Both the position numbers and the translations under genes were made by a program. Positions 27,968 through 42,066 of a stretch of DNA of 64,000 bases are shown piece by piece; position 1 is the first letter of the stretch; each line of letters starts with the position of its first letter. The DNA is from Stappia taiwanensis. Lineage in GTDB: Bacteria > Pseudomonadota > Alphaproteobacteria > Rhizobiales > Stappiaceae. The notes below the pieces were generated by a model. That model saw only the letters and a program-made list of their open reading frames with translations. It was not told the DNA's origin and ran no database searches. The stretch covers positions 1 to 64,000 of the forward strand of contig NZ_BMCR01000002.1 of the NCBI RefSeq assembly GCF_014635285.1, written 5' to 3'.

Positions 27968-28158
27968 GGACTCACCTCTGCGAACACCTGCAATTGACTG
28001 ATTCAACCGGCGATAATCGTGAAATTGCCGCGAGGGGCAAGCCCCGATGTTCCGCAACTGTTCCCATAGGGTCCGCGCGTCGGAGTTCGATGTCTCATCG
28101 CGGGGCTTCGGGTGGCTTTTGAACGGTGACGACAACGCAATTCACGACCGCCTCCGAC

Positions 28159-28362
28159 ATGAAACGTCCCAATCCCTTGCCACCCGACATGATGACCCCA
28201 GCCGAGCGCCGCGCCGAACTGTGCGGTCTTCTGGCGCTCGGGCTGGTCCGTCTGAAGCTGCGCGAACGCGACGAAGCGTCTGTCGATACTGGAGAAATTC
28301 GCCTACACTCTTCGGCCGACCAATGCCGTCATGCAACTCCAACTCACCGGAGAACCGCATGA
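28159..28362 (+). CDS. Small protein at the head of the integration operon
   Basis: This 67-residue protein contains MTPAERRAELCGLLALGLVR and ends ATPTHRRTA. Short proteins with this PAERR..LA.GL.RL pattern precede DUF2924 and serine recombinase genes in many alphaproteobacterial prophages. The ATG at 28159 is favoured over a GTG at 28126. Its stop overlaps the DUF2924 start (ATGA). The function is unknown; it may assist recombination. Confidence 0.6.
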   Translation: MKRPNPLPPDMMTPAERRAELCGLLALGLVRLKLRERDEASVDTGEIRLHSSADQCRHATPTHRRTA

Positions 28363-28811
28363 ACAAACCTGATCCCATTCCCGCGCGCCTGGCAGCACTC
28401 AAGACCGCGACAACGCCGGAGTTGAAGCAGCAGTGGCGTGACCTGTTCGACAGCGAGCCGCCACCGTTCAATCGGCGCTACCTTGAGAGCCGGCTGGCCT
28501 ACCGCATCCAGGAGCTGGCCTATGGTGGGCTGAAGCCGGAGACGATCCGGCGGCTGGAGCGGTTGGGCGAAGACCTCGACGGCGGCGACCGGACGAAGAG
28601 CCGCATCCGCGCCGACACCATGCCCATCGCCGGCACGCGGTTGATCCGCGAGTGGCAGGGCGTCGAGCACGCCGTCACAGTGACCGCTGACGGCTTCGAG
28701 TGGCAGGGGCGGCCCTACAAGTCGCTGTCCGCCATCGCACGCGCGATCACCGGCACGCGCTGGAATGGCTGGGTCTTCTTTGGGCTGAAGAACCGGAGGG
28801 CGCGGACGTGA
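28359..28811 (+). CDS. DUF2924 family protein
   Basis: This 150-residue protein carries RRYLESRLAYRIQELAYGGL and GTRLIREWQGVEHAVTVTAD, the family signature, and ends with GTRWNGWVFFGLKNRRA. DUF2924 proteins are almost always encoded directly before a large serine recombinase and are thought to be accessory factors, perhaps directionality or DNA-binding factors, though this is unproven. The overlap with the recombinase start is GTGA. The frame is open back to 28047 but the upstream part looks non-coding. Confidence 0.85.
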   Translation: MNKPDPIPARLAALKTATTPELKQQWRDLFDSEPPPFNRRYLESRLAYRIQELAYGGLKPETIRRLERLGEDLDGGDRTKSRIRADTMPIAGTRLIREWQGVEHAVTVTADGFEWQGRPYKSLSAIARAITGTRWNGWVFFGLKNRRART

Positions 28812-30118
28812 CGAAGCCGGTCGTACGCAAACAGCGCTGCGCCATCTACACCCGGAAATCCTCCGAGGAAGGGCTGGAGCAGGAGTTCAACTCGCTCCAT
28901 GCCCAGCGGGAGGCGTGTGAATCCTTTATCGCCAGCCAGCGGTCCGAAGGCTGGGTGCTGGTGCGCGACCGCTATGACGACGGCGGCATCTCGGGCGGCA
29001 CGCTGGAACGCCCGGGACTGAAGCGCCTGATGGTCGACATCGAGGACGGGCTGGTCGACGTGGTTGTCGTCTACAAGATCGACCGCCTCAGCCGATCGCT
29101 GGCCGACTTCGCCAAGCTGGTCGAGGTGTTCGACCGCAATGACGTGACTTTCGTTTCCGTCACGCAGTCCTTCAACACGACCACGTCGATGGGGCGGCTG
29201 ACGCTGAACATTCTGCTGTCCTTCGCGCAGTTCGAACGGGAGGTGACGGCCGAGCGCATCCGCGACAAGGTCGCCGCCAGCCGCAAGAAGGGGATGTGGA
29301 TGGGTGGCGTGCCGCCTTACGGCTACCGGGTCGAGAACCGGAAGCTGGTGATCGACGACGCGCGCGCCGAACATGTCCGCTGGATCTTTGCCCGGTTCCT
29401 CGAGATCGGCTCGGGAACGGAACTGGCGCGGGAGCTGGCGAAGCGCGGGATCCGCACGCCGCGCGGCAACCGGATCGACAAGAAATACCTCTACCGGATG
29501 CTGAACAACCGCGCCTATATCGGCGAGGCGGTCCACAAGGGCGAGAGCTACCCCGGCGAGCATGACGCGATCATAGACCGCGAGACGTGGGACCGCGTCC
29601 ACGCCATCCTGCAGGAGAGCCCCCGAAAGCGCGCCGCCCGGACCCGCGCCGAGACGCCGGCGCTGCTGAAAGGTCTGCTGTTCGGACCGGACGGCGCCGC
29701 GTTCTCGCCGACCCATACGCGCAAAGGCGACAGGCTCTACCGCTACTACGTCAGCCAGACGGTACTGAAACACGGTGCCGGATCCTGCCCCGTGGGCCGC
29801 GTGCCCGCGGGCGAGATCGAGGCGGCCGTCATCGACCAGCTCCGCGCAGTCTTCCGGCAGCCCGAGATCGTGGCGGGGACGTGGAAGGCGGCGCGCGCCC
29901 ACGCCGACGACTTCACCGAAGCCGACGCCCGTACGGCCCTGCAGCAGCTTGACCCGCTGTGGGACGAACTGTTCCCCGCAGAGCAAGCCCGCATCGTGGC
30001 GCTGCTGATCGAGCGCGTGGACATCGGCACCGACGGGCTCAACGTGCGCTTGCGCGTCGATGGCCTTGGCGGTCTGGCCCGCGAGATGCTGGCCGGTGGC
30101 ATAGAGGCCGCAGCGTGA
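28808..30118 (+). CDS. Large serine recombinase (phage integrase)
   Basis: This 436-residue protein has the N-terminal resolvase domain with YTRKS (catalytic Ser18), DRYDDGGISGGTLERPGL and YKIDRLSRSLADF. A recombinase domain (GVPPYGYRVENRKLVIDD) follows, then a zinc-ribbon region and a C-terminal helical part. It would catalyse site-specific phage integration and, with a partner, excision. It starts with GTG overlapping the DUF2924 stop. It sits at the right end of the phage genes, so one attachment site should lie within a few hundred bases downstream. Confidence 0.93.
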   Translation: MTKPVVRKQRCAIYTRKSSEEGLEQEFNSLHAQREACESFIASQRSEGWVLVRDRYDDGGISGGTLERPGLKRLMVDIEDGLVDVVVVYKIDRLSRSLADFAKLVEVFDRNDVTFVSVTQSFNTTTSMGRLTLNILLSFAQFEREVTAERIRDKVAASRKKGMWMGGVPPYGYRVENRKLVIDDARAEHVRWIFARFLEIGSGTELARELAKRGIRTPRGNRIDKKYLYRMLNNRAYIGEAVHKGESYPGEHDAIIDRETWDRVHAILQESPRKRAARTRAETPALLKGLLFGPDGAAFSPTHTRKGDRLYRYYVSQTVLKHGAGSCPVGRVPAGEIEAAVIDQLRAVFRQPEIVAGTWKAARAHADDFTEADARTALQQLDPLWDELFPAEQARIVALLIERVDIGTDGLNVRLRVDGLGGLAREMLAGGIEAAA

Positions 30119-30510
30119 CACACGGCGCACCGATCCCCGACACCGTGACACTTCACGTCCCGTTCCGCATCGCGAAGCGCGGCGGAAAGAAGGAGATGCA
30201 GATGCCCGAAGGCGCCACGCACTCGCCGCGGACTGACAACACGCTGGTCAAGGCGCTGGCCCGTGCGTTCCGATGGAAGCGGATGCTCGAGTCGGGCGAA
30301 TACGCCACCATCGCTGAACTGGGCGAACGAGAGGGCATCGCGCCCTCCTACATGACCCGCGTCCTGCGGCTCACGCTGCTCGCGCCTGACATCATCGAGG
30401 CGATCCTGGACGGGAAGCAGGGGCCGGAGTTGACGCTGAGGAAGGTGCTTGAGCCGTTTCCGTTGGAGCGGAGCAGACAAGAAGCACATTTCAGCATTGC
30501 GCGCCGGTAA
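30115..30510 (+). CDS. HTH-like protein downstream of the recombinase
   Basis: This 131-residue protein has a helix-turn-helix stretch (TIAELGEREGIAPSYMTRVL) followed by a conserved LTLLAPDIIEAILDGKQG region. It is coupled to the recombinase gene by a GTGA overlap. Proteins of this kind follow serine recombinases in alphaproteobacterial elements and may be recombination directionality factors or regulators. The final 20 residues differ from the usual ending, suggesting truncation close to the element boundary. Confidence 0.7.
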   Translation: MTHGAPIPDTVTLHVPFRIAKRGGKKEMQMPEGATHSPRTDNTLVKALARAFRWKRMLESGEYATIAELGEREGIAPSYMTRVLRLTLLAPDIIEAILDGKQGPELTLRKVLEPFPLERSRQEAHFSIARR

Positions 30511-30716
30511 CGGCGTGGAGTGTTTGGTCCATCCGGACTTTGCTGAAAACGGAACCCTTGGCCGGATCTTGGTGTCGATGCCGTTGAAGCAGGCGCAGTG
30601 AAGCGGCGACAGTACCGCCGCGACAAGGCTCCAACCTCTTGCTCGATATCGGCCGAACAACTCGTCGGGCGTCGCAGAGGCTGGCGCTGTCGTCCCGATC
30701 CGCTCGCACATAGCCG

Positions 30717-30735
30717 CAACATTTCACGTATGTTG
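30717..30735. promoter_or_regulatory. Operator 1 of the GHKL operon
   Basis: CAACAT and ATGTTG flank a 7-base spacer, giving a perfect 6-base inverted repeat. A second copy of the same design starts exactly 30 bases later. It lies just upstream of the predicted -35 element, a place suited to cooperative repression. Confidence 0.65.
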
Positions 30736-30743
30736 ACGCTATA

Positions 30744-30772
30744 TTGCAACATAAGCGTTCTGTTGCTATATA
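30744..30772 (+). promoter_or_regulatory. Promoter of the GHKL defence operon, probably leaderless
   Basis: TTGCAA (30744-30749) and TATATA (30767-30772) are spaced by 17 bases, a good sigma-70 pattern. The ATG of the first gene is at 30779, only 6 bases past the -10, so transcription would begin at or near the A of the start codon. A leaderless mRNA fits the absence of a ribosome-binding element there. Confidence 0.6.
30747..30765. promoter_or_regulatory. Operator 2 of the GHKL operon
   Basis: CAACATAAGCGTTCTGTTG repeats the design CAACAT-N7-NTGTTG with one arm base changed. It occupies the spacer between the -35 and -10 elements of the promoter at 30744-30772, so a bound protein would block RNA polymerase. 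The 30-base offset from operator 1 is about three helical turns, favouring cooperative binding. Confidence 0.65.
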
Positions 30773-30778
30773 CAGGAC

Positions 30779-31000
30779 ATGAAGGACAAGAGAGAGAGCT
30801 TCGTGAGGTTGGCGGAGGGGCGTGTGAACCGAGCCCTCAAGGACATCCGGCTGATTGGCAACCTCTCGAATCGGTCTGCGTACAGCTACTCCGACGAAGA
30901 CGTGAAGAAGATCTTCAGGGCTCTGCAGCGGGAGCTCGAGCTTGCTCGATCACGCTTCGGCGACGGTGAAAGCAGCGGTTCAGGTGATTTCAAGCTGTAA
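30779..31000 (+). CDS. Small first gene of the GHKL/DUF6339 operon
   Basis: This 73-residue, highly charged, helical protein contains RVNRALKDIRLIGNLSNRSA and YSDEDVKKIFRALQRELELA. I have no domain name, but the KIFRALQ-type ending recurs in short proteins that open restriction-like operons. The ATG is used with a probable leaderless transcript; a GTG at about codon 16 with GGAGGGG before it is an alternative start for translation of a shorter form. It probably serves the system's complex or its regulation. The function is unknown. Confidence 0.7.
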   Translation: MKDKRESFVRLAEGRVNRALKDIRLIGNLSNRSAYSYSDEDVKKIFRALQRELELARSRFGDGESSGSGDFKL

Positions 31001-31044: not shown

Positions 31045-32946
31045 ATGGTTGAACCTGTTCTGAGATTCCTGACCAACGAAGCAGGCGAGAAGGAGGGCCT
31101 CGGCGACGCCGGAATCGAGACGTTTCGTGATGCGCCTTATGCCAGCTGCGCTCGGGAAGCAGGGCAGAACAGTCGTGACGCAGCGACGGGCCTGCCCGCG
31201 GAGCCCGTTCGAATGTCCTTCAATGTCTTGAAGCTCGATCCCTCAAGCTTTCCGTCACACGACCTGCTCAGTGATACGATCTCCGCTTGCAGCGCCGAGG
31301 CAGAACAGGATCGCGAGAAGGAATTCTTTTCGAATGCTTCCAAAGTAATCGGCGCAAGTTTCATTCCGGTGCTCGAGATAGCCGATCACAATACGACTGG
31401 CCTTGTTGGCCCGCCCGACAAGGATGGCACTCCCTTCCATTCACTCGTCAAGGCTTCGGGGGTGACAGCAAAGGACACCGCCGACTCAGGCGGCTCTTTT
31501 GGGATCGGAAAGAACGCGTCCTTTGCCGTATCGGATCTTCAGACCGTCTTTTACGCGACGACGTACAAGGACGGAGACGCGGAAGCTTTTGCTGCTCAGG
31601 GAAAGGTGAAGCTGGTTTCTCACACTGCGTCCGACGGCACCAAACACAGGGCAACCGGCTATTGGGGTGACCCCGATGGCTTTCGGGCCGTGACCGACCC
31701 TGCCTTGGTGCCGGAATGGATGAAGCGCACCGAGACCGGAACCTCAATCTTCTGCATGGGTTTCCGGGCCGCTGAGGACTGGGCGGAACGGATGACCTAT
31801 TCGCTCGTCTCGAATTTCTTCTGCGCTGTTCATCGCGAAGAGATGGTTTTTGAAGTCGATGATGGCAGGATCAATATCAACCGAAACACGCTCGAGAGCC
31901 TTTTCTCCAGGCAGGACATCATCGATGCAGCGGAGCGTACAGGGCACCAAGCCGATCTTACCTTCGCAGGGCAGCTCTATCGTTGCCTCGTTTCGGACAG
32001 CGCGGAAGAGCATGTTCTGACCATCCCGAAGCTTGGGCAGTTACGTGTCAGAGTGCTGATCGAAGAGGGAATGCCCAGCCGTGTCGGTTTCATACGAAAC
32101 GGAATGCTGATCACTGATAATCTTCGACACTTTGGACACCCTCTCCAGCAATTCCGGGGCTCCCGCGACTTCGTGGTCGTAGTGGAACCAGCCGATCTGG
32201 AGGCTGGCGTGCTGTTGAAGAAGCTTGAGAATCCGGCACATGATGGCTTCTCGGCGGAACGGCTCCCCGATGCTGCCAAACGCGCTGATGCCTCGACCGC
32301 GATGAAACAACTCGGCAAGGAGCTCCGGGAGATCATCAAGGCCACAACCGGCGTCAAGCACGAGGGCTCCGTCGTCCTCGACGAACTTGGTCGTTTCTTC
32401 TCGGAGACCGGCAAGACCGACAAGCCCGACGATCCGAATGCAGAACATGATCCCGAACGGTACACCTACGAGTCCAAGCGACGGAAATCAAAGTCTCGAA
32501 AGGCACCCAGCCCTGCTGGAGGCGAACGAGGCGGTCGAAGCCAGACCGGGACGGGTTCTGGCGGTAAAGGAGGTGGTAGCGGCTCCGGAACCGGTGGCGG
32601 CACGGGCGGCCGCGGCAGTGCAGGAGACCGAGAGCCAGTTGTTCTGCGCGAGGTACGCAATCTCATCCGCTCAGACGGCTCTGGAGCAGCCACATCCCGT
32701 GAACTGCATTTCACGCCGGAAGCCTCGGGACCGATCGAGTTGATGGTTCAGGCCACGGGTGTGAATGCGCCCGAGGGCCTCAACGTAACGGCGGCGGACG
32801 CGGGCACTCCCGGCTCTGGTGTGCTTACTGTTGACGTGAAAAAAGGCGAACGGTGCAAGGTCACCGTTTCGTTCGATGAACCATACGATGGCCCGATCGA
32901 GTTGATCGCCATAAGCCGCGCGGCAGTCGAGGAAACGCCGGCATGA
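31045..32946 (+). CDS. GHKL-fold ATPase (MORC/Hsp90-like) of a defence operon
   Basis: This 633-residue protein has an N-terminal Bergerat ATP-binding fold: N box REAGQNSRDA (37-46), G1-like ADHNTTGL (113-120) and G2-like GGSFGIGKNASF (149-160). After about 470 a basic region (YESKRRKSKSRKAP) and a Gly/Ser/Thr-rich linker lead to a C-terminal beta-rich domain (about 535-633). GHKL ATPases dimerise on ATP binding and act as clamps on DNA or protein; MORC-like ones occur in bacterial restriction-type systems. The next gene overlaps by 4 bases. Confidence 0.82.
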   Translation: MVEPVLRFLTNEAGEKEGLGDAGIETFRDAPYASCAREAGQNSRDAATGLPAEPVRMSFNVLKLDPSSFPSHDLLSDTISACSAEAEQDREKEFFSNASKVIGASFIPVLEIADHNTTGLVGPPDKDGTPFHSLVKASGVTAKDTADSGGSFGIGKNASFAVSDLQTVFYATTYKDGDAEAFAAQGKVKLVSHTASDGTKHRATGYWGDPDGFRAVTDPALVPEWMKRTETGTSIFCMGFRAAEDWAERMTYSLVSNFFCAVHREEMVFEVDDGRININRNTLESLFSRQDIIDAAERTGHQADLTFAGQLYRCLVSDSAEEHVLTIPKLGQLRVRVLIEEGMPSRVGFIRNGMLITDNLRHFGHPLQQFRGSRDFVVVVEPADLEAGVLLKKLENPAHDGFSAERLPDAAKRADASTAMKQLGKELREIIKATTGVKHEGSVVLDELGRFFSETGKTDKPDDPNAEHDPERYTYESKRRKSKSRKAPSPAGGERGGRSQTGTGSGGKGGGSGSGTGGGTGGRGSAGDREPVVLREVRNLIRSDGSGAATSRELHFTPEASGPIELMVQATGVNAPEGLNVTAADAGTPGSGVLTVDVKKGERCKVTVSFDEPYDGPIELIAISRAAVEETPA

Positions 32947-33779
32947 GGTTTTCAGAAGAAACGCGCTATCCACATCCGGTCCTGGCGCAGGACACAGGGG
33001 ATTTCACCACTGGTGAATTCGACATGGTCTTCACCCTGAGCGAAGACATCGCAACTGGAGCACTATCCATTCAGCACGAAACCACCCTGACGGAAGACGG
33101 GATCCGGCAACTCGTCGAGACCGGAAGGGCATCGGTGGGCTGCTTTGTCCGCTGCGCGGACACGTATCATACTGAACTGCGGACACTGGCCTGGCCCTCA
33201 GGCCGCACCGACTTCGCCGCCGGAGTTCTGCTGAACAGGGTATCCTTGCGACCGATCGTCTGGTTGAACGACGAATTGTCTGCTTGGGACCCGGGGACCA
33301 TTCACCCGGAGTTTTCACCGCCGGTGGACCTGAGCCGCGGCGACATCATCGCAATCGGAGAGGAGCACATCATCTCGGTCGGACAGGCGAAGCTTGCTCC
33401 CATCGAGAGCATTTTCGAACTCGACCGATCGCCGGACATTCCGGAAGGAACGTTGCAGGTTGAGCTGGAGCGGGACCGCATCACGATTCTCGCCGGAGAG
33501 AAGACACACGAGACCATCATGCTCTTGCGCGAGCAGAAGGCCGGCAAGCCGGTCGTCATGAACGCCGTCTACCTTCCGGCTGTAATGGAAGTCCTTGATG
33601 CGCTGCAAAGTGGCGCGGACCAATACGAGCCATATCGCTGGCATGCTCCTTTCACGGCTCGCTGCGACGCCCGGGGCGTTGATCCAAAAACAGATACTTC
33701 AATCCTCGAGAGCGCTCAGAAACTCCTCGATAGCCCGGCAAGCGGATTGGAGCAGTTGGTGGCGGAGGCAGACAGATGA
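32943..33779 (+). CDS. Defence-operon protein of unknown function, 278 residues
   Basis: This protein is mostly beta strand with many acidic residues (TLSEDIATGALSIQHETTLT, LSRGDIIAIGEEHIISVGQA). The C-terminal third is helical (VMNAVYLPAVMEVLDALQSG). No catalytic motif, signal peptide or membrane segment is seen. ATGA overlaps on both sides tie its translation to the GHKL ATPase and DUF6339 genes, implying one complex. No function can be assigned. Confidence 0.75.
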   Translation: MRFSEETRYPHPVLAQDTGDFTTGEFDMVFTLSEDIATGALSIQHETTLTEDGIRQLVETGRASVGCFVRCADTYHTELRTLAWPSGRTDFAAGVLLNRVSLRPIVWLNDELSAWDPGTIHPEFSPPVDLSRGDIIAIGEEHIISVGQAKLAPIESIFELDRSPDIPEGTLQVELERDRITILAGEKTHETIMLLREQKAGKPVVMNAVYLPAVMEVLDALQSGADQYEPYRWHAPFTARCDARGVDPKTDTSILESAQKLLDSPASGLEQLVAEADR

Positions 33780-34537
33780 CGGAATCGCCGCTCAAGTATC
33801 TCTCGGAAAAGAAGCTTTCCGAGCTCAAGGAGAGCATTGTCGCCAACCGCGACCGGTATGAGGCAGGAGACTTCCTTGATCTCGAGCATGATAACGGCTG
33901 GGCAGTTGAGACCGGCACTGTACAGGTTGATCATGACCTGCTGGCGAAGCTCGATGGCACAGCGAGGACTGCAGCTGCCGACATCGACAACTCCCTGATC
34001 CTGTTCCAGGCCCTTCAGGGGATGACGCCTGCTCTCGCGCGGGAAGAGCGTGTCTGGGCCAGACTGACGCACATCGAATGCCTTGGCTATTCGCGGGAAA
34101 GGTGGCTCTCAGGGAACAAAAGCGAGCAGCTCGACGCCCAGGTCCGTATCCACATGTTCGCTCCCGGACTTACCGCGATCCGCGACGACAATGCATTATC
34201 CCGTCTCTGGTGGAACATGCACATCGCGAGCATTGCAGATCCGGATGATCCCGAGGGTGCGCTGCGACTAATACTCAAGACCGCGGACATTCGGAGCAAC
34301 TTTGTCGAACGCACGAACACCGCCGCTCGAAAGCCGCTTGCGAGAGCCGTCGTCCGCGCAATGCGACGGGAGCCATGGATCACGTCCAGCGAGAGAGCCT
34401 TCAGGGAATTCATGATCGCTCTCAATCGAGACGGCGGAGGGATCCTGTTCGAGGCTCTCTCTGACGACGAGGCCGACGCACTCATGGATACCTGTGCCTC
34501 CCGAGCACAGGCTCACATGGCGAAAAAGGCTGCCTGA
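33776..34537 (+). CDS. DUF6339 family protein
   Basis: This 253-residue protein begins MTESPLKYLSEKKLSELKES and contains DIDNSLILFQALQGMTPALA, then EERVWARLTHIECLGYSRER, which match what I recall of DUF6339. The fold is unknown and mainly helical. The gene ends 4 bases from the end of the convergent methyltransferase gene. DUF6339 genes are commonly next to GHKL ATPase and cytosine methyltransferase genes, pointing to a shared defence role that to my knowledge has not been worked out. Confidence 0.7.
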   Translation: MTESPLKYLSEKKLSELKESIVANRDRYEAGDFLDLEHDNGWAVETGTVQVDHDLLAKLDGTARTAAADIDNSLILFQALQGMTPALAREERVWARLTHIECLGYSRERWLSGNKSEQLDAQVRIHMFAPGLTAIRDDNALSRLWWNMHIASIADPDDPEGALRLILKTADIRSNFVERTNTAARKPLARAVVRAMRREPWITSSERAFREFMIALNRDGGGILFEALSDDEADALMDTCASRAQAHMAKKAA

Positions 34538-34541
34538 TCCT

Positions 34542-36179
34542 TCAACCCTTGGCCTCGTTTTGCTCGAGGAGTTCAAGCTCTGAGGCATCCGGAACCGGTT
34601 TCAAAGTAGAAGCATCGCCGTCGAGATCGTTTTCTTCCCCTATTTCTGGCACCAGAACCTCATGTAGCAATGCCGCGATATGGCGCGCGAGGAACGGCGG
34701 CACGGCATTCCCGACTTGTACATACTGCTGAGTGCGATTGCCAAGGAAGACGTAGTCATCCGGAAACGTCTGAAGACGGGCGGCTTCCCTGACAGTCAGG
34801 CTGCGACATTGGACCGGGTCGGGGTGGATGAAGTAGTGGCCATCCTTGGAGATGTGGCTGGTCACGGTGCTCGAAGGCTGCCCCGCAACCTGGACGCGGA
34901 ACCGGTCATTGAAGACGCCGGTGTGCCAGTTGCGGTGGTCAGGGCTGATGGCTGAGGGAAAGTCTGCGGCCTTGGGGCTGTAACCGTGCACTGAGCCAAA
35001 CACCGATGCGAAAAGATAGCGGCCAAGGTCTGACTTCATGTGCCCTCGAGTCTCGTGCTGGGCAACTGCACGCAGCTCGAGCCGTTCAATCCAGTTCAGC
35101 AGTTCGTCGTTTGAGTGACCATACTGGTCTGGTAGAGCCGACGAATCCCGGAGACTGGGCATCTCCGCCTCCAGCCGTTCAATCAAGGAGGCAAACGCTT
35201 CATGGAGTCGAACGTCGTCTTTTTCCTTCGTGAGCTCTGAAAGCAACTCGGCTGCTTGGACCACCTCTTGTCGCCAAACCGTAACGTCGTCTCCGCCGCG
35301 GCTAATTCCACTGCGCAATGCCGGTAGAGTCAGGATGGTACTGCCGACGGTCCTGACGTTACGAGGCACGTCCACTTCGGCTCGAGCAGCCCGATCTGCG
35401 AGGTCGGAACGGATCCCGATGATGATCACTCGATGCCGTTTCTGGGGAATGCCAAACTCTTCCGCACGGACGATGAAATCCGATGGTCGCATGGCCTCCC
35501 GCAAGCTGGCCCTGCCATCCTGGATAAGGATGGCGCGTATCTCGTACTCATGGCCGTGGCCCGTCCCAAGCGAGGAGAGGTCTTCCATCAGCATCTCGAA
35601 CACGAGGCGGCTTTCGACCGTCGAGGACAGCATGCCCTTGACGTTCTCCATGACGAACGCGGCAGGACGAAGTTCATCAAGCACCCGAATGTACTCGCGA
35701 AACAGGTAGTGCCGCTCATCCTGCTCAGGCACGTAGCCGACCTTGCCCCTCGAACGCGCACGACCGACGAGGGAATAGGCCTGACAGGGCGGCCCACCGA
35801 TCAGGATCGTATCGTCGAAACTAGCCTTGAGGCTGTCGATGGCGGCGTCAATTGCGTCCGCGGCTGTCTCGGTTCCGAGTTCGAGGGCACGCGCTTCCTC
35901 GATAGCGAGTCGCCACGCGTCGGCGTCAACTTCTGACCAGTCCGGTTCGGGAGCGTGTCCTGCATGGAAATTAATGAATTGCACCGGCAAGGCGCCGTGC
36001 CGCGACCGATACTCACGCAGGAATGCACGCAGCGTCAGTGTCCGGTGAGCCGAGGCCTCCTTCTCGACTGAAATGCCGATCCGGAACGGTGAGTGGCCGT
36101 CCGCGACGAAGGACGCAAATCCCTCGCCAAGTCCGCCTGGGCCGGCGAACAGATCAACGATGCCGAAAGTGGAAGGCAA
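34542..36179 (-). CDS. C5-cytosine DNA methyltransferase of the defence island
   Basis: This 545-residue protein has all main C5-MTase motifs: I VDLFAGPGGLGEGF (8-21), IV IGGPPCQAYSLVG with catalytic Cys132, VI AFVMENVKGM, VIII PQKRHRVIIIG and X QVGNAVPPFLA. The target-recognition region between VIII and X is long. It probably marks self DNA for the convergent GHKL operon. The start is TTG at 36179 with GGAG 8 bases upstream. The gene is divergent from the Vsr gene across 61 bases. The specificity is not readable from sequence. Confidence 0.92.
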   Translation of the reverse strand: MPSTFGIVDLFAGPGGLGEGFASFVADGHSPFRIGISVEKEASAHRTLTLRAFLREYRSRHGALPVQFINFHAGHAPEPDWSEVDADAWRLAIEEARALELGTETAADAIDAAIDSLKASFDDTILIGGPPCQAYSLVGRARSRGKVGYVPEQDERHYLFREYIRVLDELRPAAFVMENVKGMLSSTVESRLVFEMLMEDLSSLGTGHGHEYEIRAILIQDGRASLREAMRPSDFIVRAEEFGIPQKRHRVIIIGIRSDLADRAARAEVDVPRNVRTVGSTILTLPALRSGISRGGDDVTVWRQEVVQAAELLSELTKEKDDVRLHEAFASLIERLEAEMPSLRDSSALPDQYGHSNDELLNWIERLELRAVAQHETRGHMKSDLGRYLFASVFGSVHGYSPKAADFPSAISPDHRNWHTGVFNDRFRVQVAGQPSSTVTSHISKDGHYFIHPDPVQCRSLTVREAARLQTFPDDYVFLGNRTQQYVQVGNAVPPFLARHIAALLHEVLVPEIGEENDLDGDASTLKPVPDASELELLEQNEAKG

Positions 36180-36240: not shown

Positions 36241-36768
36241 ATGCAAGTGACAGATATTGTGGATCAGCAGACCCGATCTCGCATGATGGCAGGGATCAAG
36301 GGAAAGAACACGAAGCCTGAACTGGCGCTTAGGCGGGCTCTGCACGCTCGCGGGTTCCGCTACCGGCTTCACTCAAAGAACGTCCACGGCAGGCCTGACC
36401 TCGTCCTTCCGAAGCACCGAGCGGTCATCTTTGTGCACGGGTGTTTCTGGCATCGGCATGAGGGGTGTCGCTACGCTACCACTCCCGCGACGCGCGTAGC
36501 GTTCTGGCAGGCAAAGTTCGACGCGAACGTTGCGCGAGACAGTACCGTTCGGGACGCGCTGCTTGCGGCGGGCTGGCGCGTAGCGACGATCTGGGAGTGT
36601 GCCCTTCGAAAACCGGAAAAGGTCGCGGCAGCGGCCGACCAGCTTTCGACATGGTTGTTCTCCGAAACGGAGACGCTCGAGCTCGGCGAACGTGAGGTCT
36701 CGTCACCTACAGGAAAAGGCGAGGATGTCAGCTCGTGCAGCTTATTGGTTCAACCCGGCAGGGCATGA
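36241..36768 (+). CDS. Vsr-like very-short-patch repair endonuclease
   Basis: This 175-residue protein contains RSRMMAGIKGKNTKPELALR, GRPDLVLP with the catalytic Asp of the Vsr fold, and FVHGCFWHRHEGCRYA with metal/zinc ligands. Vsr nicks at T:G mismatches that arise when 5-methylcytosine deaminates, so it offsets the mutagenic cost of the adjacent methyltransferase. The last 35 residues extend past the usual family length and look unstructured. A GTG two codons inside could also serve as start. Confidence 0.9.
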   Translation: MQVTDIVDQQTRSRMMAGIKGKNTKPELALRRALHARGFRYRLHSKNVHGRPDLVLPKHRAVIFVHGCFWHRHEGCRYATTPATRVAFWQAKFDANVARDSTVRDALLAAGWRVATIWECALRKPEKVAAAADQLSTWLFSETETLELGEREVSSPTGKGEDVSSCSLLVQPGRA

Positions 36769-36996
36769 TGCGCCTGTTGAATGTTCGATCCGAGTGTCTT
36801 CTTGCGCACGCCACTGGCGTCGAAGTGTTTAGCCGGGAACTCCGGAAAGCGATTTTATTTCAGAGGCTTGCAACCTATTCACCAAATCCACGCAGTCATG
36901 AGGTCCGGAGAATATCGCCCCCGAGAGACTGCTTCCGAGCCTCCTCGCGCGAGGGCCGGTGCTCAGCCCCACCCGCATACCCCCCAAAAACAACGG

Positions 36997-37018
36997 AAAA
37001 ATCCGGCCGCAGCCGGAT
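36997..37018 (-). terminator. Rho-independent terminator of tRNA-Ser
   Basis: On the minus strand ATCCGGC and GCCGGAT form a 7-base stem with a 4-base loop, followed by a short T run (A-run at 36997-37001 on the plus strand). It lies about 27 bases past the tRNA 3' end. Its presence shows that the tRNA and its terminator are intact, so the island edge is left of 36997. Confidence 0.65.
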
Positions 37019-37044
37019 CGGGAGAACGCTTTCGCGGAGGCAAG

Positions 37045-37134
37045 TGGCGGAGAGGAAGGGATTCGAACCCTCGATACCGTCTCCGGTATACTCCCTTAGC
37101 AGGGGAGCGCCTTCGACCACTCGGCCACCTCTCC
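37045..37134 (-). tRNA. tRNA-Ser(GCU)
   Basis: On the minus strand the acceptor arm GGAGAGG pairs with CCTCTCC; GTGGCCGAGTGG gives the D arm, and the anticodon loop CTGCTAA carries GCT. A long variable arm (TACCGGAGACGGTA) follows, typical of serine tRNAs, then the T arm GGTTCGAATCC and an encoded CCA. The genome island starts beyond its 3' end, which is a common integration position. Confidence 0.95.
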
Positions 37135-37516
37135 GTCCGGTTTCGTTTACGCGGCAAAGCCTCGCAGTTCAAGGGCTTTCTTGCCCCTGTGGATGATTTC
37201 CGGTGGAGCTCTCCCCTGCAATTCCTTGCAGGAACGTGCAGTGAACAAAGAGAGATTTGCAGAAACTCTCGTACAAAACCCGAACAGTTTTGTCCTCATC
37301 AGTTCTCAGAATGGGGGATTGCGCCGCGCGGCGCGCCCTTCGGCCGGCCCCTCCAGATAACCAGCGCTCACCAGCACTCAAGGAAATAGATCATCACCGT
37401 AAAGCGCAACCACCAACCCATGCAATGCCGGGACCTCTCCCCCTTCCCGTCACCCGCGTCATGCCTTTGGGAGCCACCCCCGCCCGAAAGCCGGATACCG
37501 AGATCAGAACCAGGCG
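37135..37516. other. Intergenic region upstream of tRNA-Ser
   Basis: There is no convincing gene in these 382 bases. They must contain the tRNA-Ser promoter. A hairpin with 7-base arms (CCTGCAA, TTGCAGG) lies at 37215-37232. The region is partly AT-rich. Nothing else is supported. Confidence 0.4.
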
Positions 37517-37978
37517 TCAGTCCGCGAGCCGTTCGAACATCCCCTTGAGCATCTCGGTCATCTCCTTGCGCTCCGCCTCGTCGAGCCCCTTATAGACCCG
37601 CTCGCGCACTTTCTCGGCCTCCGCCCAGCCCCGATGACGCAACGCCACGCCGGCCCGGGTCAGGGTCACCTCAGTCACCCGCCCATCGGAGGCGCGCGGA
37701 CGGGTCACCACCAATCCATCGGCCACCATGCGCTGAATGATCTTGGTGGTGGTGTTGAGCTTGATCACGCAGATTTCGGCGATTTCCGAAACGCTCATGT
37801 GCTCGCCGTCGTAAAGGACCATCAGCACGCGCCAGCGCGGCACATCGAGACCGACCGGCTTCAACACCGATTCCATCACCTGGAGATAGCGGGCGTTGAT
37901 GCGCAGAACCCAGAAAAACGGCCACTCCCGCATCTGAAATTCGGATCGGGCGGGGGAATGCGTTTTCTCTCGGTCCAT
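37517..37978 (-). CDS. MarR-family transcriptional regulator
   Basis: This 153-residue winged-helix protein has LDVPRWRVLMVLYDGEHMSV, then EIAEICVIKLNTTTKIIQRM as the recognition HTH and DGRVTEVTLTRAGVALRHRG as the beta wing. MarR dimers usually repress nearby genes and release DNA on binding small aromatic ligands. The 329-base region before it contains an inverted repeat, and the divergent neighbour encodes a secreted DUF2147 protein. The target is inferred, not shown. Confidence 0.9.
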   Translation of the reverse strand: MDREKTHSPARSEFQMREWPFFWVLRINARYLQVMESVLKPVGLDVPRWRVLMVLYDGEHMSVSEIAEICVIKLNTTTKIIQRMVADGLVVTRPRASDGRVTEVTLTRAGVALRHRGWAEAEKVRERVYKGLDEAERKEMTEMLKGMFERLAD

Positions 37979-38072
37979 CTGCGTCTCTCAAAAGAGGAAA
38001 ACAAAACAGTCGCACGACCCCTGATGGTAGGAGACCTGGCGCGCTTGTCCATAGGCCGGATGGCCGATATCG

Positions 38073-38092
38073 TTACGTCACCTCTTGCGTAA
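38073..38092. promoter_or_regulatory. Possible MarR operator
   Basis: TTACG and CGTAA form an inverted repeat with 10 bases between them, 95 bases before the MarR start. The octamer TTGCGTAA within it recurs at 38256-38263, 45 bases before the DUF2147 gene. Two copies flanking the divergent region suggest the MarR protein may control both genes. The motif is short, so chance is possible. Confidence 0.3.
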
Positions 38093-38307
38093 GGCCTTTA
38101 CGGGGCACACTCCGCCAAAGAGCAGGCCGCACCAATTGTGCGCCGCGCCCCCTTCCCAATCCCCCGCTACGTCCGACCGGAAATACCGCGAAACCACCCG
38201 CCAGGTGCCCTAGGGGCACGGCTGGTCAACTTCCACCAAAGCGTGTAGCTTCCGTTTGCGTAAAGGGAATGTGGTGTCCATTGACGCCCGATAGGAGGAG
38301 ACGCTTC

Positions 38308-38721
38308 ATGAAGATCACCGTTGCCGGCCTGGCCGCCGGTCTCACCCTCATGCTGACCCTACCCGCCCAGGCTGCGGATGCACGCGGCGAATGGGCCCGC
38401 CCGAGCGGGTCGTCACGCATCAAGATCGCAAGCTGCGGCGGGGCGCTCTGCGGCACCCTGGTGTGGCTGAAATCGCCGCGCAAGGATGTGAAGAACCCAG
38501 ACCCGGCAAAGCGCAGCCGGCCGCTGGTCGGCAGCCGCACGGTGCTCGGCATGAAGCCCAGCGGCAAGGCGGGTCAGTGGAAGGGCAAGGTCTACAATGC
38601 CGAGGATGGCAAGACCTATACCGGCTTCATGACCATGGATGGCAACAACAAGCTGAAGCTTGAGGGCTGCGTGCTCGGCGGGTTGATCTGCAAGGGCGAG
38701 ACCTGGTCGCGCGTGCGCTGA
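38308..38721 (+). CDS. DUF2147 secreted protein
   Basis: This 137-residue protein has a signal peptide at 1-22 (MKITVAGLAAGLTLMLTLPA then QAADA), so it is periplasmic. The mature part has the DUF2147 beta-barrel pattern GEWARPSGSSRIKIASCGGALCGTLVWL and KVYNAEDGKTYTGFMTM, written here in pieces. An AGGAGG element lies 7 bases before the ATG. DUF2147 proteins are small lipocalin-like proteins of unknown ligand. It is divergent from marR. Confidence 0.85.
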   Translation: MKITVAGLAAGLTLMLTLPAQAADARGEWARPSGSSRIKIASCGGALCGTLVWLKSPRKDVKNPDPAKRSRPLVGSRTVLGMKPSGKAGQWKGKVYNAEDGKTYTGFMTMDGNNKLKLEGCVLGGLICKGETWSRVR

Positions 38722-38800
38722 TGCCACTGTGACGGTGCGCCCCGCGCGGATGGGAGGTCCGCGCGGGGGACGTATCAGGCCCCAGACAGGGGCCGCGCGA

Positions 38801-39514
38801 TCAGCTTGCGCGCTGACCGAACAGCACCGCCTGGGCCTTGGTGTCGCTGGACAGATCGAGTTGCCTACGCCTGTCCTCGCCCACGGCAAGACCGCGCCGA
38901 ACGGCCGGGCGTGCCTTCATCCGCTCCAGCCAGCGCGCCACATTGGGAAAGTCCTTTTCAAGGTCCATTCCCTGTCGCTCCCAGCCGGTGGCCCAGCCCA
39001 CCAGCGCCATATCGGCGATGGAATAGTCGCCCGCCACGAAGTCGCGCCCTTCCAGCCGCTTGTTGAGAACACCATAGAGCCGGTGCGTCTCGTTGAGGTA
39101 GCGGTCCATCGCATAGGGCAGCTTTTCCGGCGCATAGACGCGGAAATGATGGTTCTGGCCGAGCATCGGGCCAAAGCCGCCCATCTGCCACATCAGCCAT
39201 TCTTCCACCTCGACCCGGGCACGTGGATCCTCCGGATAGAACCGGCCGAACTTGCGGCCGAGATATTGCAGGATCGCCCCGGATTCGAACACCGAGATCG
39301 GCGCGCCATCCGGGCCCTCTGGATCGATGATCGCCGGCATCCGGTTGTTGGGCGAGATCTTCAGGAAATCGGGCTTGAACTGGTCACCGGCACCGATGTC
39401 CACATAGGTGACCTTGTAGGGAACGCCCAGTTCCTCCAGCATGATGGTGATCTTCCAGCCATTTGGGGTTGGCCAGTAGAACAGCTCGATCGGCTTGGTC
39501 TGTGCAGCGCTCAT
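38801..39514 (-). CDS. Glutathione S-transferase, YghU/YfcG-like
   Basis: This 237-residue protein has an N-terminal thioredoxin-like domain (LFYWPTPNGWKITIMLEELG, then NNRMPAIIDPEGPDG and SVFESGAILQYLG), with the cis-Pro and the ES pair that bind glutathione. An all-helical C-terminal domain with DYSIADMALVGWATGW follows. The NGWK region fits the Nu-class YghU/YfcG enzymes that reduce disulphides or peroxides with glutathione. The ATG at 39514 is chosen; the open frame to 39631 is unsupported. It is cytosolic. Confidence 0.9.
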   Translation of the reverse strand: MSAAQTKPIELFYWPTPNGWKITIMLEELGVPYKVTYVDIGAGDQFKPDFLKISPNNRMPAIIDPEGPDGAPISVFESGAILQYLGRKFGRFYPEDPRARVEVEEWLMWQMGGFGPMLGQNHHFRVYAPEKLPYAMDRYLNETHRLYGVLNKRLEGRDFVAGDYSIADMALVGWATGWERQGMDLEKDFPNVARWLERMKARPAVRRGLAVGEDRRRQLDLSSDTKAQAVLFGQRAS

Positions 39515-39627
39515 GCATGCATCTCCACGAGAAGCGGTCTTCAAGGAAAAAGCCGCGAGAGACGCCCCACGGCTTGTATGCCCCTGCACGTAAGACACTT
39601 CAGCGCGAAGACAATGGCCGGACGGGT

Positions 39628-40119
39628 TCACAGCATCAGCTTGTAGCCCTCATGGGTCGCCTCATAGCCCAGCGCGCGGTAAAAATCGTGTGAGACCTGC
39701 CGCGCCTTGTTTGAGGTGAGCTGCACCAGCGCACACCCCTCCTCCCGCGCCCGCGCCTCGGCAAAGCGCATCATCGCCGCGCCGATCCCCATGCGTCGGA
39801 CCTCAGGGTTCACATGCACGCTCTCGACCTGCGCCCGCGGTCGCCCCTGAAAGCTCAATCCGTAAAGAAGGGAAAACTCGAAGGACCCGGCAAGGCGCGC
39901 CGGATCGTCGTCGAGCCGGGCGACATAGAGCGTCGCGCGCGCCCCGTCCATCATCCGCCGGAAGGCCCGGCGATAGGGCGCAAGGTCAGCCGTCTCCGCT
40001 CCGACCCGCACGCCTGCGGCATTGGCCGACATCAGCGCAACGACGGCGGCAAGATCCGCCTCCGTCGCCAGCCGGATCTTCAAAGCGGGCGCAGCGATTT
40101 TCTTTTCCATGCGAGGCAT
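39628..40119 (-). CDS. GNAT-family N-acetyltransferase
   Basis: This 163-residue protein has the GNAT core AQVESVHVNPEVRRMGIGAA (motif A with the acetyl-CoA loop) and a C-terminal QLTSNKARQVSHDFYRALGY. That ending is common in antibiotic or amino-acid-type acetyltransferases acting on small amines. The start at 40119 has GGAG just upstream; a second ATG at 40110 is possible. It is 22 bases downstream of btaB, so it may be co-transcribed, though no lipid role is known. Confidence 0.88.
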   Translation of the reverse strand: MPRMEKKIAAPALKIRLATEADLAAVVALMSANAAGVRVGAETADLAPYRRAFRRMMDGARATLYVARLDDDPARLAGSFEFSLLYGLSFQGRPRAQVESVHVNPEVRRMGIGAAMMRFAEARAREEGCALVQLTSNKARQVSHDFYRALGYEATHEGYKLML

Positions 40120-40141
40120 GCTCTCCGGCGCGGGGTGAGTC

Positions 40142-40831
40142 TCAGGCCGGCAGCATACCCCCGTTGACGCGCCCATACACCGCATAGCCGCCATGAAGCG
40201 GGACAAGCTCCGCCGTCCGCCCCGCCCGCGCGGCAGCCTCGCCCAGCGCCTCGGCAAGATCGGCCCTCGGGCTGACATGAAAGGCCGCCAGCCAGGCGCG
40301 CATCGGCGCACGCAGGAAAGCTGGATATCGCTCCATCTGGCCGAAATCGACCACATGCATCTGCCCGTCCGGGGCGAGAACGCCAATACCGGCCTCCAGT
40401 ACCGCACGCCAGGGCGGGATCATCGACAGGCTGTAGGACAGAAACACCCGGTTGAACCGCGCTTCCCCGAAGAGCCACGCGGGATCAAAGTCGGAGGCAT
40501 CGCCCTCGGCCACAAAGACCCGGTCCGACAGCCCGGCCCGGGTGATCGCCGCCCGGGCGCTTGCCAGCATCTCCGCCGAGATATCGACGCCGAAGAACCG
40601 TGCCTGCGGATAGCGCCGCGCCGCCAGAATGAGATTGCGGGCGGTGCCGCAGCCCAGTTCCAACACCGTACCGCCGGCAGGCGGCGCCAGATCGGCAATC
40701 AGCCGGTCCCGGCCGAACAGATAGTATTTGCGGGTCGCGTCATAGATATGCCGCTGCCAGCGATAGATCCGGTCCATCAGCTCGCCGGACGTCCCCGGAG
40801 TGGCCTCAGGCACAGGCACGGGCGCGCTCAT
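40142..40831 (-). CDS. btaB: BtaB-like SAM-dependent N-methyltransferase, betaine lipid synthesis
   Basis: This 229-residue class I methyltransferase has motif I LELGCGTARNL (about 58-68) and post-motif FFGVDISAEMLASA. It makes diacylglyceryl-trimethylhomoserine (DGTS) by three N-methylations of the homoserine head group in the inner membrane. Identification rests on linkage to btaA and the matching length. Its ATG overlaps the btaA stop (TGATG), so the two are coupled; a GTG 3 bases upstream is an alternative start. Confidence 0.87.
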   Translation of the reverse strand: MSAPVPVPEATPGTSGELMDRIYRWQRHIYDATRKYYLFGRDRLIADLAPPAGGTVLELGCGTARNLILAARRYPQARFFGVDISAEMLASARAAITRAGLSDRVFVAEGDASDFDPAWLFGEARFNRVFLSYSLSMIPPWRAVLEAGIGVLAPDGQMHVVDFGQMERYPAFLRAPMRAWLAAFHVSPRADLAEALGEAAARAGRTAELVPLHGGYAVYGRVNGGMLPA

Positions 40832-42066
40832 CACGCCGCCCGGACATAAAGATGGAACCCGCCGTAGATCGACGACCGGTCGCGGCGGCCATAATCCTCC
40901 GAAGCCTCCGCCTCATAATGCCATTGCCCCAAGAGCCCCGGATCGACCCGGCCCGGCAACAGGCTCGGCGCGGCGGCAGTGCGGAACGCCACCCGCGCGC
41001 CCGGACGGGCGGTGCGGGTGATCTGCGCCCAAAGTTCGTTCAGTGTCTCGTCCGACATCCAGTCCTGAGCGTCGAGCAGAACGTAGCGGTCGACGCTCTC
41101 CGCCGGCTGGTCGGCGAGATGATCGGTGAAGGAGCGGTTGACCACCGTCACCCGGTCGGCGCGGGCGCGGATCTTCTCGAAATGCTCGCGCCGCAGATAG
41201 GGCGGCAGCGGTCCGGCCTCATCGTTGGCATAGGAGCGGCCAAAGGCCTGCCAGGCGAAGTAGTTCTCCGAAAGCGGGAAATCGCAGGCGAGTTTTTCCA
41301 ACCGCTGGCGCAACACACCGGCCATGCTGCCGCCGCTGGAGGCCAACGCCTCATACTGTGCCGGCGGAATGCCGAGCCCGTAGAGCGACACCCGCTTTGA
41401 AGTGGCCCAGCGCACCATCCGCTTGTCGAACAGAGGTGCCAGCGCGCTGTCGAAGAAGCTGCGCTGCTCCTCGAGCGAGCGGGCGCGCAGGATGTCCTTC
41501 GGATCGATGCCGTAAAGCCGCGCCACCTTGTGCCCGGCACCGATGAAATAGCCAAGCAGGCCGTGGTGATAGAGATCGCGGGCGAACAGCGAGATCCGGC
41601 GCCGGCCGGTCACCCCGCGCCGTTCCCAATAGGCGCGGCTGTCCGCATCGAGCCCATCGCGCAGAAAGCGGGTATAGGCCTCGACATTCGCCTTTTCATC
41701 CGCCTTGCCGAAGAAGCGGTAGAAGGCATCGTAGCCAGGTAGCCGGCGGGCGGCGGTGAGCTTCAGCCGCGTCAGCGCCACATGCGCCTGGTTGAGGTCG
41801 ACGGCGGTGATCTGTTCCGGATCCGCGGTCAGATAGCTGAGGACGTTGCAGCCGCCCGAGGCAATGGCGACGACCCGGTGGTCGCGCTCGATGGCGAGCG
41901 CTTCCATGTCAATCTCCGGGTCTTCCCAGATCTGCGGATAGACCAGCCCCTTGAACGCCCAGGTGAAAAGCCGCTCCAGCGCGCCCTCGCCTGAAAGCGC
42001 GCTGTTGCGATGCACAGCCTGCCCGAGTAGTTCGCGCCTGCCCATGGTGTTGCGCTCAGAGGTCAT
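40831..42066 (-). CDS. btaA: BtaA, SAM:diacylglycerol 3-amino-3-carboxypropyltransferase
   Basis: This 411-residue DUF3419 protein contains FKGLVYPQIWEDPEIDMEAL, VVAIASGGCNVLSYLTADPE (SAM loop), AVDLNQAHVALTRLKL and VLLDAQDWMSDETLNELWAQ. BtaA moves the aminocarboxypropyl group of SAM to diacylglycerol, the first step in DGTS synthesis. In Sinorhizobium and Rhodobacter this pathway replaces phospholipids under phosphate limitation. A probable Pho box about 60 bases upstream supports the same control here. It is followed directly by btaB. Confidence 0.92.
   Translation of the reverse strand: MTSERNTMGRRELLGQAVHRNSALSGEGALERLFTWAFKGLVYPQIWEDPEIDMEALAIERDHRVVAIASGGCNVLSYLTADPEQITAVDLNQAHVALTRLKLTAARRLPGYDAFYRFFGKADEKANVEAYTRFLRDGLDADSRAYWERRGVTGRRRISLFARDLYHHGLLGYFIGAGHKVARLYGIDPKDILRARSLEEQRSFFDSALAPLFDKRMVRWATSKRVSLYGLGIPPAQYEALASSGGSMAGVLRQRLEKLACDFPLSENYFAWQAFGRSYANDEAGPLPPYLRREHFEKIRARADRVTVVNRSFTDHLADQPAESVDRYVLLDAQDWMSDETLNELWAQITRTARPGARVAFRTAAAPSLLPGRVDPGLLGQWHYEAEASEDYGRRDRSSIYGGFHLYVRAA

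Follow-up and report, generated by a model that had tools for sequence, protein, structure and literature searches.

The 64,000-nucleotide stretch of Stappia taiwanensis DNA analyzed here (the window; contig NZ_BMCR01000002.1, positions 1 to 64,000) carries a four-gene forward-strand operon in the order SM-GHKL-M33B-M33C, followed by a methyltransferase gene on the opposite strand and a Vsr gene. The first gene (30779 to 31000, including the stop codon) encodes SM, a 73-amino-acid candidate autoregulator with a predicted leaderless mRNA. It is followed by a gene for a GHKL-type ATPase that matches PADLOC model PDC-M33A (31045 to 32946; E = 1.9e-98), by PDC-M33B, of unknown function (32943 to 33779; PADLOC E = 5e-34), and by PDC-M33C, which contains DUF6339 (33776 to 34537; Pfam E = 3.3e-47, PADLOC E = 2.4e-26). 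The linked genes encode a C-5 cytosine DNA methyltransferase (34542 to 36179, reverse strand; Pfam E = 7.3e-44) and a Vsr mismatch endonuclease (36241 to 36768, forward strand; Pfam E = 2.2e-30). M33A, M33B, and M33C lie adjacent, which is the composition of the candidate defense system PDC-M33, and by this match the operon is a candidate defense operon. GHKL ATPases, which share the Bergerat fold, are defined by N-box, G1, and G2 motifs. Pfam gave no match to the GHKL protein of the window, and all three motifs are present in it (E38/N42, D114-G119, G150-G155), with at least 90% of 38 homologs retaining them. No restriction enzyme was recognized among the window open reading frames (ORFs) scanned, and PADLOC matched none of four ORFs lying from 36781 to 42066. 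Upstream of the operon, positions 28047 to 30510 probably represent a mobile-element module, comprising a serine recombinase gene (28700 to 30118) preceded by a DUF2924 gene and followed by a 183-amino-acid ORF.

Two predicted operator dyads lie upstream of SM: CAACATTTCACGTATGTTG (30717 to 30735), a perfect CAACAT-N7-ATGTTG that scores 12/14 against the family palindrome AACATTT-N3-AAATGTT, and CAACATAAGCGTTCTGTTG (30747 to 30765), which scores 9/14. A preliminary description of this DNA had reported two copies of CAACAT-N7-NTGTTG 30 bp apart, and both were recovered, starting at 30717 and 30747 and thus spaced by exactly 30 bp, the second with one mismatch. It had also placed one dyad in the spacer of a TTGCAA-17-TATATA promoter with the ATG 6 nucleotides on, which the sequence bears out. 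The putative promoter (30744 to 30772, forward strand) consists of TTGCAA at 30744 to 30749 and TATATA at 30767 to 30772 with an extended -10 TGC; the second dyad overlaps the end of the -35 and fills the -35/-10 spacer, and the ATG at 30779 follows 6 nucleotides after the -10. The match to the promoter consensus is weak (8/12, counted by eye), below a 9-of-12 scan that did not list it, so the promoter call rests on conservation in relatives. A genome search for further operator copies, proposed in the same description, found four forward sites of CAACAT-N8-TGTTG in 4.42 Mb, two of which are the twin dyads. With up to two mismatches, the window holds 28 box matches, both strands counted (shuffles: mean, 6.2; maximum, 17), and none between 30766 and 41310, so none lies near the methyltransferase gene. 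The related pattern AACATTT-N5-ATGTT has a single exact site in the genome and 43 forward matches at up to two mismatches, versus 16 for its reversed control. The twin dyads are not a product of chance.

The promoter geometry is conserved. TTRCAA-17-(TGN)TATRTA-6-ATG is kept in all six of the closest sequences (the window, L006 to L009, and L094). With the window and L094 96% identical upstream and L008 and L009 85% identical, these six count as three or four independent lines. The six bases before the ATG vary among them (CAGGAC, CGCGCC, TGTGAC, AGCCAA twice, and CACGAC) and share no Shine-Dalgarno sequence; in the window, no in-frame ATG, GTG, or TTG lies upstream of the SM start. Together with this variable gap, the constant spacing from -10 to ATG supports a leaderless SM mRNA, as had been predicted. 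The same prediction had assigned the leaderless ATG to the GHKL operon: it does open the operon, and the gene that it starts is the 73-amino-acid SM, the GHKL gene beginning at 31045. Many more distant SM homologs have a Shine-Dalgarno-like sequence, which suggests that the leaderless start is particular to this branch. DNA similarity to the window begins at 30718 for L007 and at 30741 for L008 and L009 (the operon-holding piece). L094, a contig that IMG/VR lists as viral, shares 90% identity with the window island across 6.2 kb.

The dyads had been read as twin operators. Their character as a dedicated, conserved operator is retained here as a prediction; their number is not, as they are the two best dyads within a phased array of about seven half-sites with the core AYRT (30708 to 30771; predicted binding sites, delimited by AYRT pair spacing and sequence reading). 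AYRT cores begin at 30708, 30719, 30730, 30741, 30749, and 30768, with a one-mismatch CTGT at 30760, giving intervals of 11-11-11-8-11-8 bp and positions -71, -60, -49, -38, -30, -19 (CTGT), and -11 relative to the SM start. An additional ACGT at 30726 is out of phase. Among 180 tested 100-bp windows of the stretch, the SM upstream region ranks first.

The array recurs upstream of SM homologs in many bacteria, so the operators are present in homologous islands, on which the preliminary description had staked its reading. Palindrome, pairs, and ranking were scored on 38 of 50 loci (the window and 49 others); L044, a copy of L035, was dropped, and 11 distant loci (L042, L043, and L045 to L053) were scored separately. 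Within 150 bp of the SM start, the palindrome, which was read from the same 38 loci on which it was scored, reached at least 10/14 in all 38 (shuffles: mean, 5.6; maximum, 10), at least 11/14 in 32 (mean, 1.3; maximum, 4), and at least 12/14 in 18 (mean, 0.2). AYRT half-sites numbered 265, with 148.5 expected. Pairs at 11 bp were found 81 times versus 5.0 in shuffles, with further peaks at 9 bp (44 versus 5.2), 20 bp (46 versus 4.7), 22 bp (39 versus 4.0), and 31 bp (28 versus 4.0); pairs at 10 and 12 bp were at background, and smaller excesses occurred elsewhere, e.g., at 13 bp (17 versus 4.8). The half-sites thus recur about once per helical turn. The region upstream of SM was the top-ranked 100-bp window of its locus in 30 of the 38, and none of them held a palindrome of at least 12/14 elsewhere. 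Across 28 loci, the array lies over the -35 no more often than under random placement (9 versus 8.5 expected, with promoter calls in homologs being crude), which confines the case for promoter occlusion to the close group. Phased pairs are absent from L008, although it is closely related to the window.

The 49 loci came from a scan of genome contigs with SM and belong mostly to alpha-, beta-, and gammaproteobacteria, with some from Firmicutes and others. Across the 50 loci including the window, the GHKL gene cluster c1 occurs in 41, the methyltransferase c2 in 34, and the Vsr c3 in 26, with two kinds of third gene (c4 in 24, c7 in 12) and of fourth gene (c5 in 23, c6 in 13). No gene cluster besides SM is constant at all 50, and the constancy of SM is by construction, as SM served as the query. 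Searching 385 genomes of the class with the PDC-M33A profile, a route independent of SM, gave hits in 14, and SM precedes the GHKL gene in 6 of these 14. Five of the six carry the array at P ≤ 0.05 (the window, L056, L064, L067, and L060, the locus also numbered L030), and the sixth, L057, has the palindrome only (P = 0.002). GHKL genes without SM, a set from which L065 was left out, showed array pairs in none of seven cases within 130 bp upstream of the GHKL start, and their palindromes reached only 7 to 10/14 within about 400 bp upstream; an operon promoter further up would be missed. Among loci fetched by the GHKL gene, the array is therefore linked to whether SM is present, and the earlier statement that no repressor gene lies beside the operon may be wrong. 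It is plausible that a dedicated regulator acts at this operon.

SM occurs in 9 of 398 genomes of the phylum. Seven of ten SM loci outside the motif definition had pairs at P ≤ 0.03 (a set excluding L060, the same as L030, L069, a close copy of L022, and L044 and L052), and two, L075 and L076, had neither pairs nor palindrome. Taking all 75 distinct SM loci, drawn from 82 and including the 37 that defined the motif (L095, with a short upstream region, L054, with a broken SM gene, and L044, L051, L052, L104, and L105, which repeat upstream DNA, are not among them), the array was present at P ≤ 0.05 in 47, versus 5 with control distances, and outside the motif-defining set in 15 of 38 versus 2. 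The array was thus not significant in 28 of 75 loci overall and in 23 of 38 outside the defining set. Its distribution follows the SM loop: 46 of 60 loci with NLxN in the loop have the array (46 of 61 counting L113), and 1 of 15 others does (1 of 14). Because of shared descent the sequences are not independent, and this association is therefore a pointer and not proof. Despite an NLSN loop, the array was not significant in L048, L049, L106, L109, and L112. Most Firmicutes loci, those whose SM loop reads KLGNK, and phage SM did not reach significance either. Among five rhizobial or roseobacter plasmid loci of an RRAY-like type, L110 has the array and L106, L109, L112, and L113 do not reach significance; in the Rhizobium plasmid locus L112 (5001 to 6323), the SM gene is cut short and an IS3 family transposase is annotated directly behind it. 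L107 and L115, from Deinococcus and an Arthrobacter plasmid, have the array by pairs (P = 0.002 each), with the palindrome not significant.

The array is kept in L073/L088 and L074/L089, where 16 to 18 kb of fetched DNA holds no Dcm, Vsr, M33A, M33B, or M33C profile match. The partner ATPase of L088 and L089 matches neither c1 nor PDC-M33A, and its HATPase_c match is above the curated cutoff in L088 and below it in L089. Most array-bearing partner ATPases (those of L064, L067, L071, and L072) do fit the c1 family profile. Beside the SM-ATPase locus of L088 (7849 to 12088) lies an oppositely oriented gene with a reverse transcriptase (RVT_1) match just under the Pfam cutoff (E = 8.4e-7). Plasmid SM-GHKL-B-C operons in L111, L114, and L115 adjoin annotated MutH/Sau3AI, AlwI-family, type II, and Shedu nucleases, a hint that the SM-GHKL-B-C system often includes a nuclease.

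AlphaFold2 modeled SM as a helical hairpin (residues 2 to 30 and 39 to 60; mean pLDDT, 82.4; pTM, 0.61) followed by a disordered tail with a conserved F-x-L at its end. None of 46 aligned SM members gave a convincing match to a DNA-binding or helix-turn-helix family, and 16 of the 46 gave weak NCBIfam matches to an arginine repressor model (best E = 0.0012). Foldseek of SM against the PDB returned no match (best E = 6.1), a profile search of PDB chains returned nothing convincing (best E = 0.11), and no PADLOC model matched (best E = 0.033, to a CRISPR protein). The accessible portions of the literature on DUF6339, PDC-M33, and GHKL/Vsr do not describe SM or its operator. On sequence grounds, SM may be the operon's own control protein, and it is the best candidate regulator because it is the first gene, has its own promoter, lies where the array is located, and tracks the array in the GHKL-fetched comparison. 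If the model is right, its two-helix hairpin without a convincing helix-turn-helix would make SM a candidate for a new kind of controller.

The best explanation, which we hold with moderate confidence, is that an SM oligomer binds the phased array and shuts its own promoter. In this scenario, the helically phased operator array would cover the promoter of the SM-GHKL-M33B-M33C operon, and SM, made first from its leaderless mRNA, would bind along one DNA face as a dimer or higher oligomer and, in the window, cover the -35/-10 region and close its own promoter. The ATPase complex would be held low and would rise when SM is diluted, as upon entry into a new cell, or removed. We infer SM as the binder, and with it repression, cooperativity, and the inducing signal; against it as the binder, operators are not usually bound by a fold of two helices in a hairpin. 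Many SM genes lack an array, so SM may have a second role with partner proteins. An alternative that we consider possible, if rather doubtful, is that SM is a partner or coregulator of the ATPase and that another protein of the system, the GHKL ATPase alone or with SM, binds the array as feedback. The absence of a helix-turn-helix in the SM hairpin, the presence of the GHKL cluster in 41 of 50 SM loci, and the membership of most array-bearing partners in the c1 profile family would all fit such feedback, as would L075 and L076, where SM without an array precedes other large genes that are GHKL-like by eye. However, none of the seven GHKL genes without SM has the array, and L088 and L089 keep it beside a partner matched only by HATPase_c.

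The absence of the array from these seven related genes also speaks against an unlinked host factor, such as a silencer of AT-rich foreign DNA, as the protein that occupies the sites, an explanation that we regard as quite improbable. The sites are AT-rich, and no annotated regulator is constant beside them (the annotation covered larger gene clusters), but half-sites and spacing are similar across alpha-, beta-, and gammaproteobacteria as well as Deinococcus and Arthrobacter, groups that differ in their xenogeneic silencers (such as those of H-NS, MvaT, or MucR/Ros type), and no site of 12/14 was found elsewhere in the 38 loci. That the repeats act as RNA hairpins, or arose by chance, is highly implausible: they are inverted, but the predicted transcript in the window starts downstream of them, and the half-site spacing and shuffle comparisons argue against chance. 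SM might also act as a switch like a restriction-modification controller protein, with the distal dyads recruiting polymerase at low SM and the proximal spacer dyad repressing at high SM. With its twin sites, predicted leaderless regulator gene, and weak promoter, the SM upstream region is reminiscent of the promoters of C genes, as far as the available excerpts of PMC4824078 describe them, and in 8 of 28 homologs the best promoter match has no overlap with the array. Promoter calls in homologs are crude, and we consider such a switch, in which activation would be a prediction, unlikely. Autorepression by SM remains our preferred reading.

Controller (C) proteins of restriction-modification systems are helix-turn-helix (XRE-type) proteins. 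SM differs from them in lacking a convincing helix-turn-helix match and in its modeled two-helix hairpin, in its operator, where as many as seven AYRT half-sites are arrayed, and in its operon, which carries a GHKL ATPase with no restriction enzyme recognized among the scanned window ORFs. Like them, it has palindromic operators in its own promoter, as far as the sequence goes. The preliminary description had called the combination of twin operators and a leaderless mRNA an unusual design for defense, and this does not hold, because it is a known layout of C genes: in the excerpted account of C.Csp231I, the C gene has twin inverted repeats CTAAG-n5-CTTAG at OL and OR and a leaderless mRNA, like many homologous C genes (PMC4824078). 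A small-protein gene, twin inverted repeats over its own promoter, a predicted leaderless mRNA, and a linked methyltransferase are all points of similarity to the systems described there. The WYL autorepressors BrxR and CapW of BREX and CBASS likewise provide a dedicated regulator gene (here a candidate) beside a defense operon. These proteins combine a winged helix-turn-helix with a WYL domain, and SM is far smaller and unrelated to them by family search. The GHKL, M33B, and DUF6339 genes match the PADLOC models for PDC-M33, whereas SM is matched by none of that set, and the family library is silent on regulation. MORC and paraMORC systems similarly place a GHKL ATPase near a cytosine methylase and Vsr in the sections of PMC2292703 and PMC8011034 that were available, and no SM-like protein or operator was found in those sections; in contrast to these systems, no helicase is encoded among the four SM-operon genes.

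Seven viral contigs (L099 to L105) encode a standalone SM in which the NLSNR loop is replaced by LND and the F-x-L tail is kept. No array and no system-profile match was found on them (strand searched). The neighborhoods of five (L099 to L102 and L105) are alike, and the neighbors of SM in L100 (3989 to 4231) include a terminase large subunit and a portal protein (phrog_15, phrog_21). By tblastn, annotated phage records gave no SM match. We speculate that viral SM acts in trans, possibly as a counter-defense mimic. A much broader proposal, which we consider doubtful, is that SM founds a new class of DNA-binding autoregulators without a helix-turn-helix, in which a helical hairpin of 70 to 80 amino acids coats a phased half-site array and controls more than one kind of GHKL-ATPase defense operon across phyla, and that phages represented by L099 to L105 have acquired it as a counter-defense mimic that silences or poisons these systems. 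Apart from WYL repressors and the C proteins of restriction-modification systems, little is known of the control that keeps defense operons off until needed. In the present case, a single family of small, unannotated genes is accompanied by a matching operator array before ATPase operons. SM and its array could serve as a marker for finding further such operons, and the family offers a possible phage counter-defense gene.
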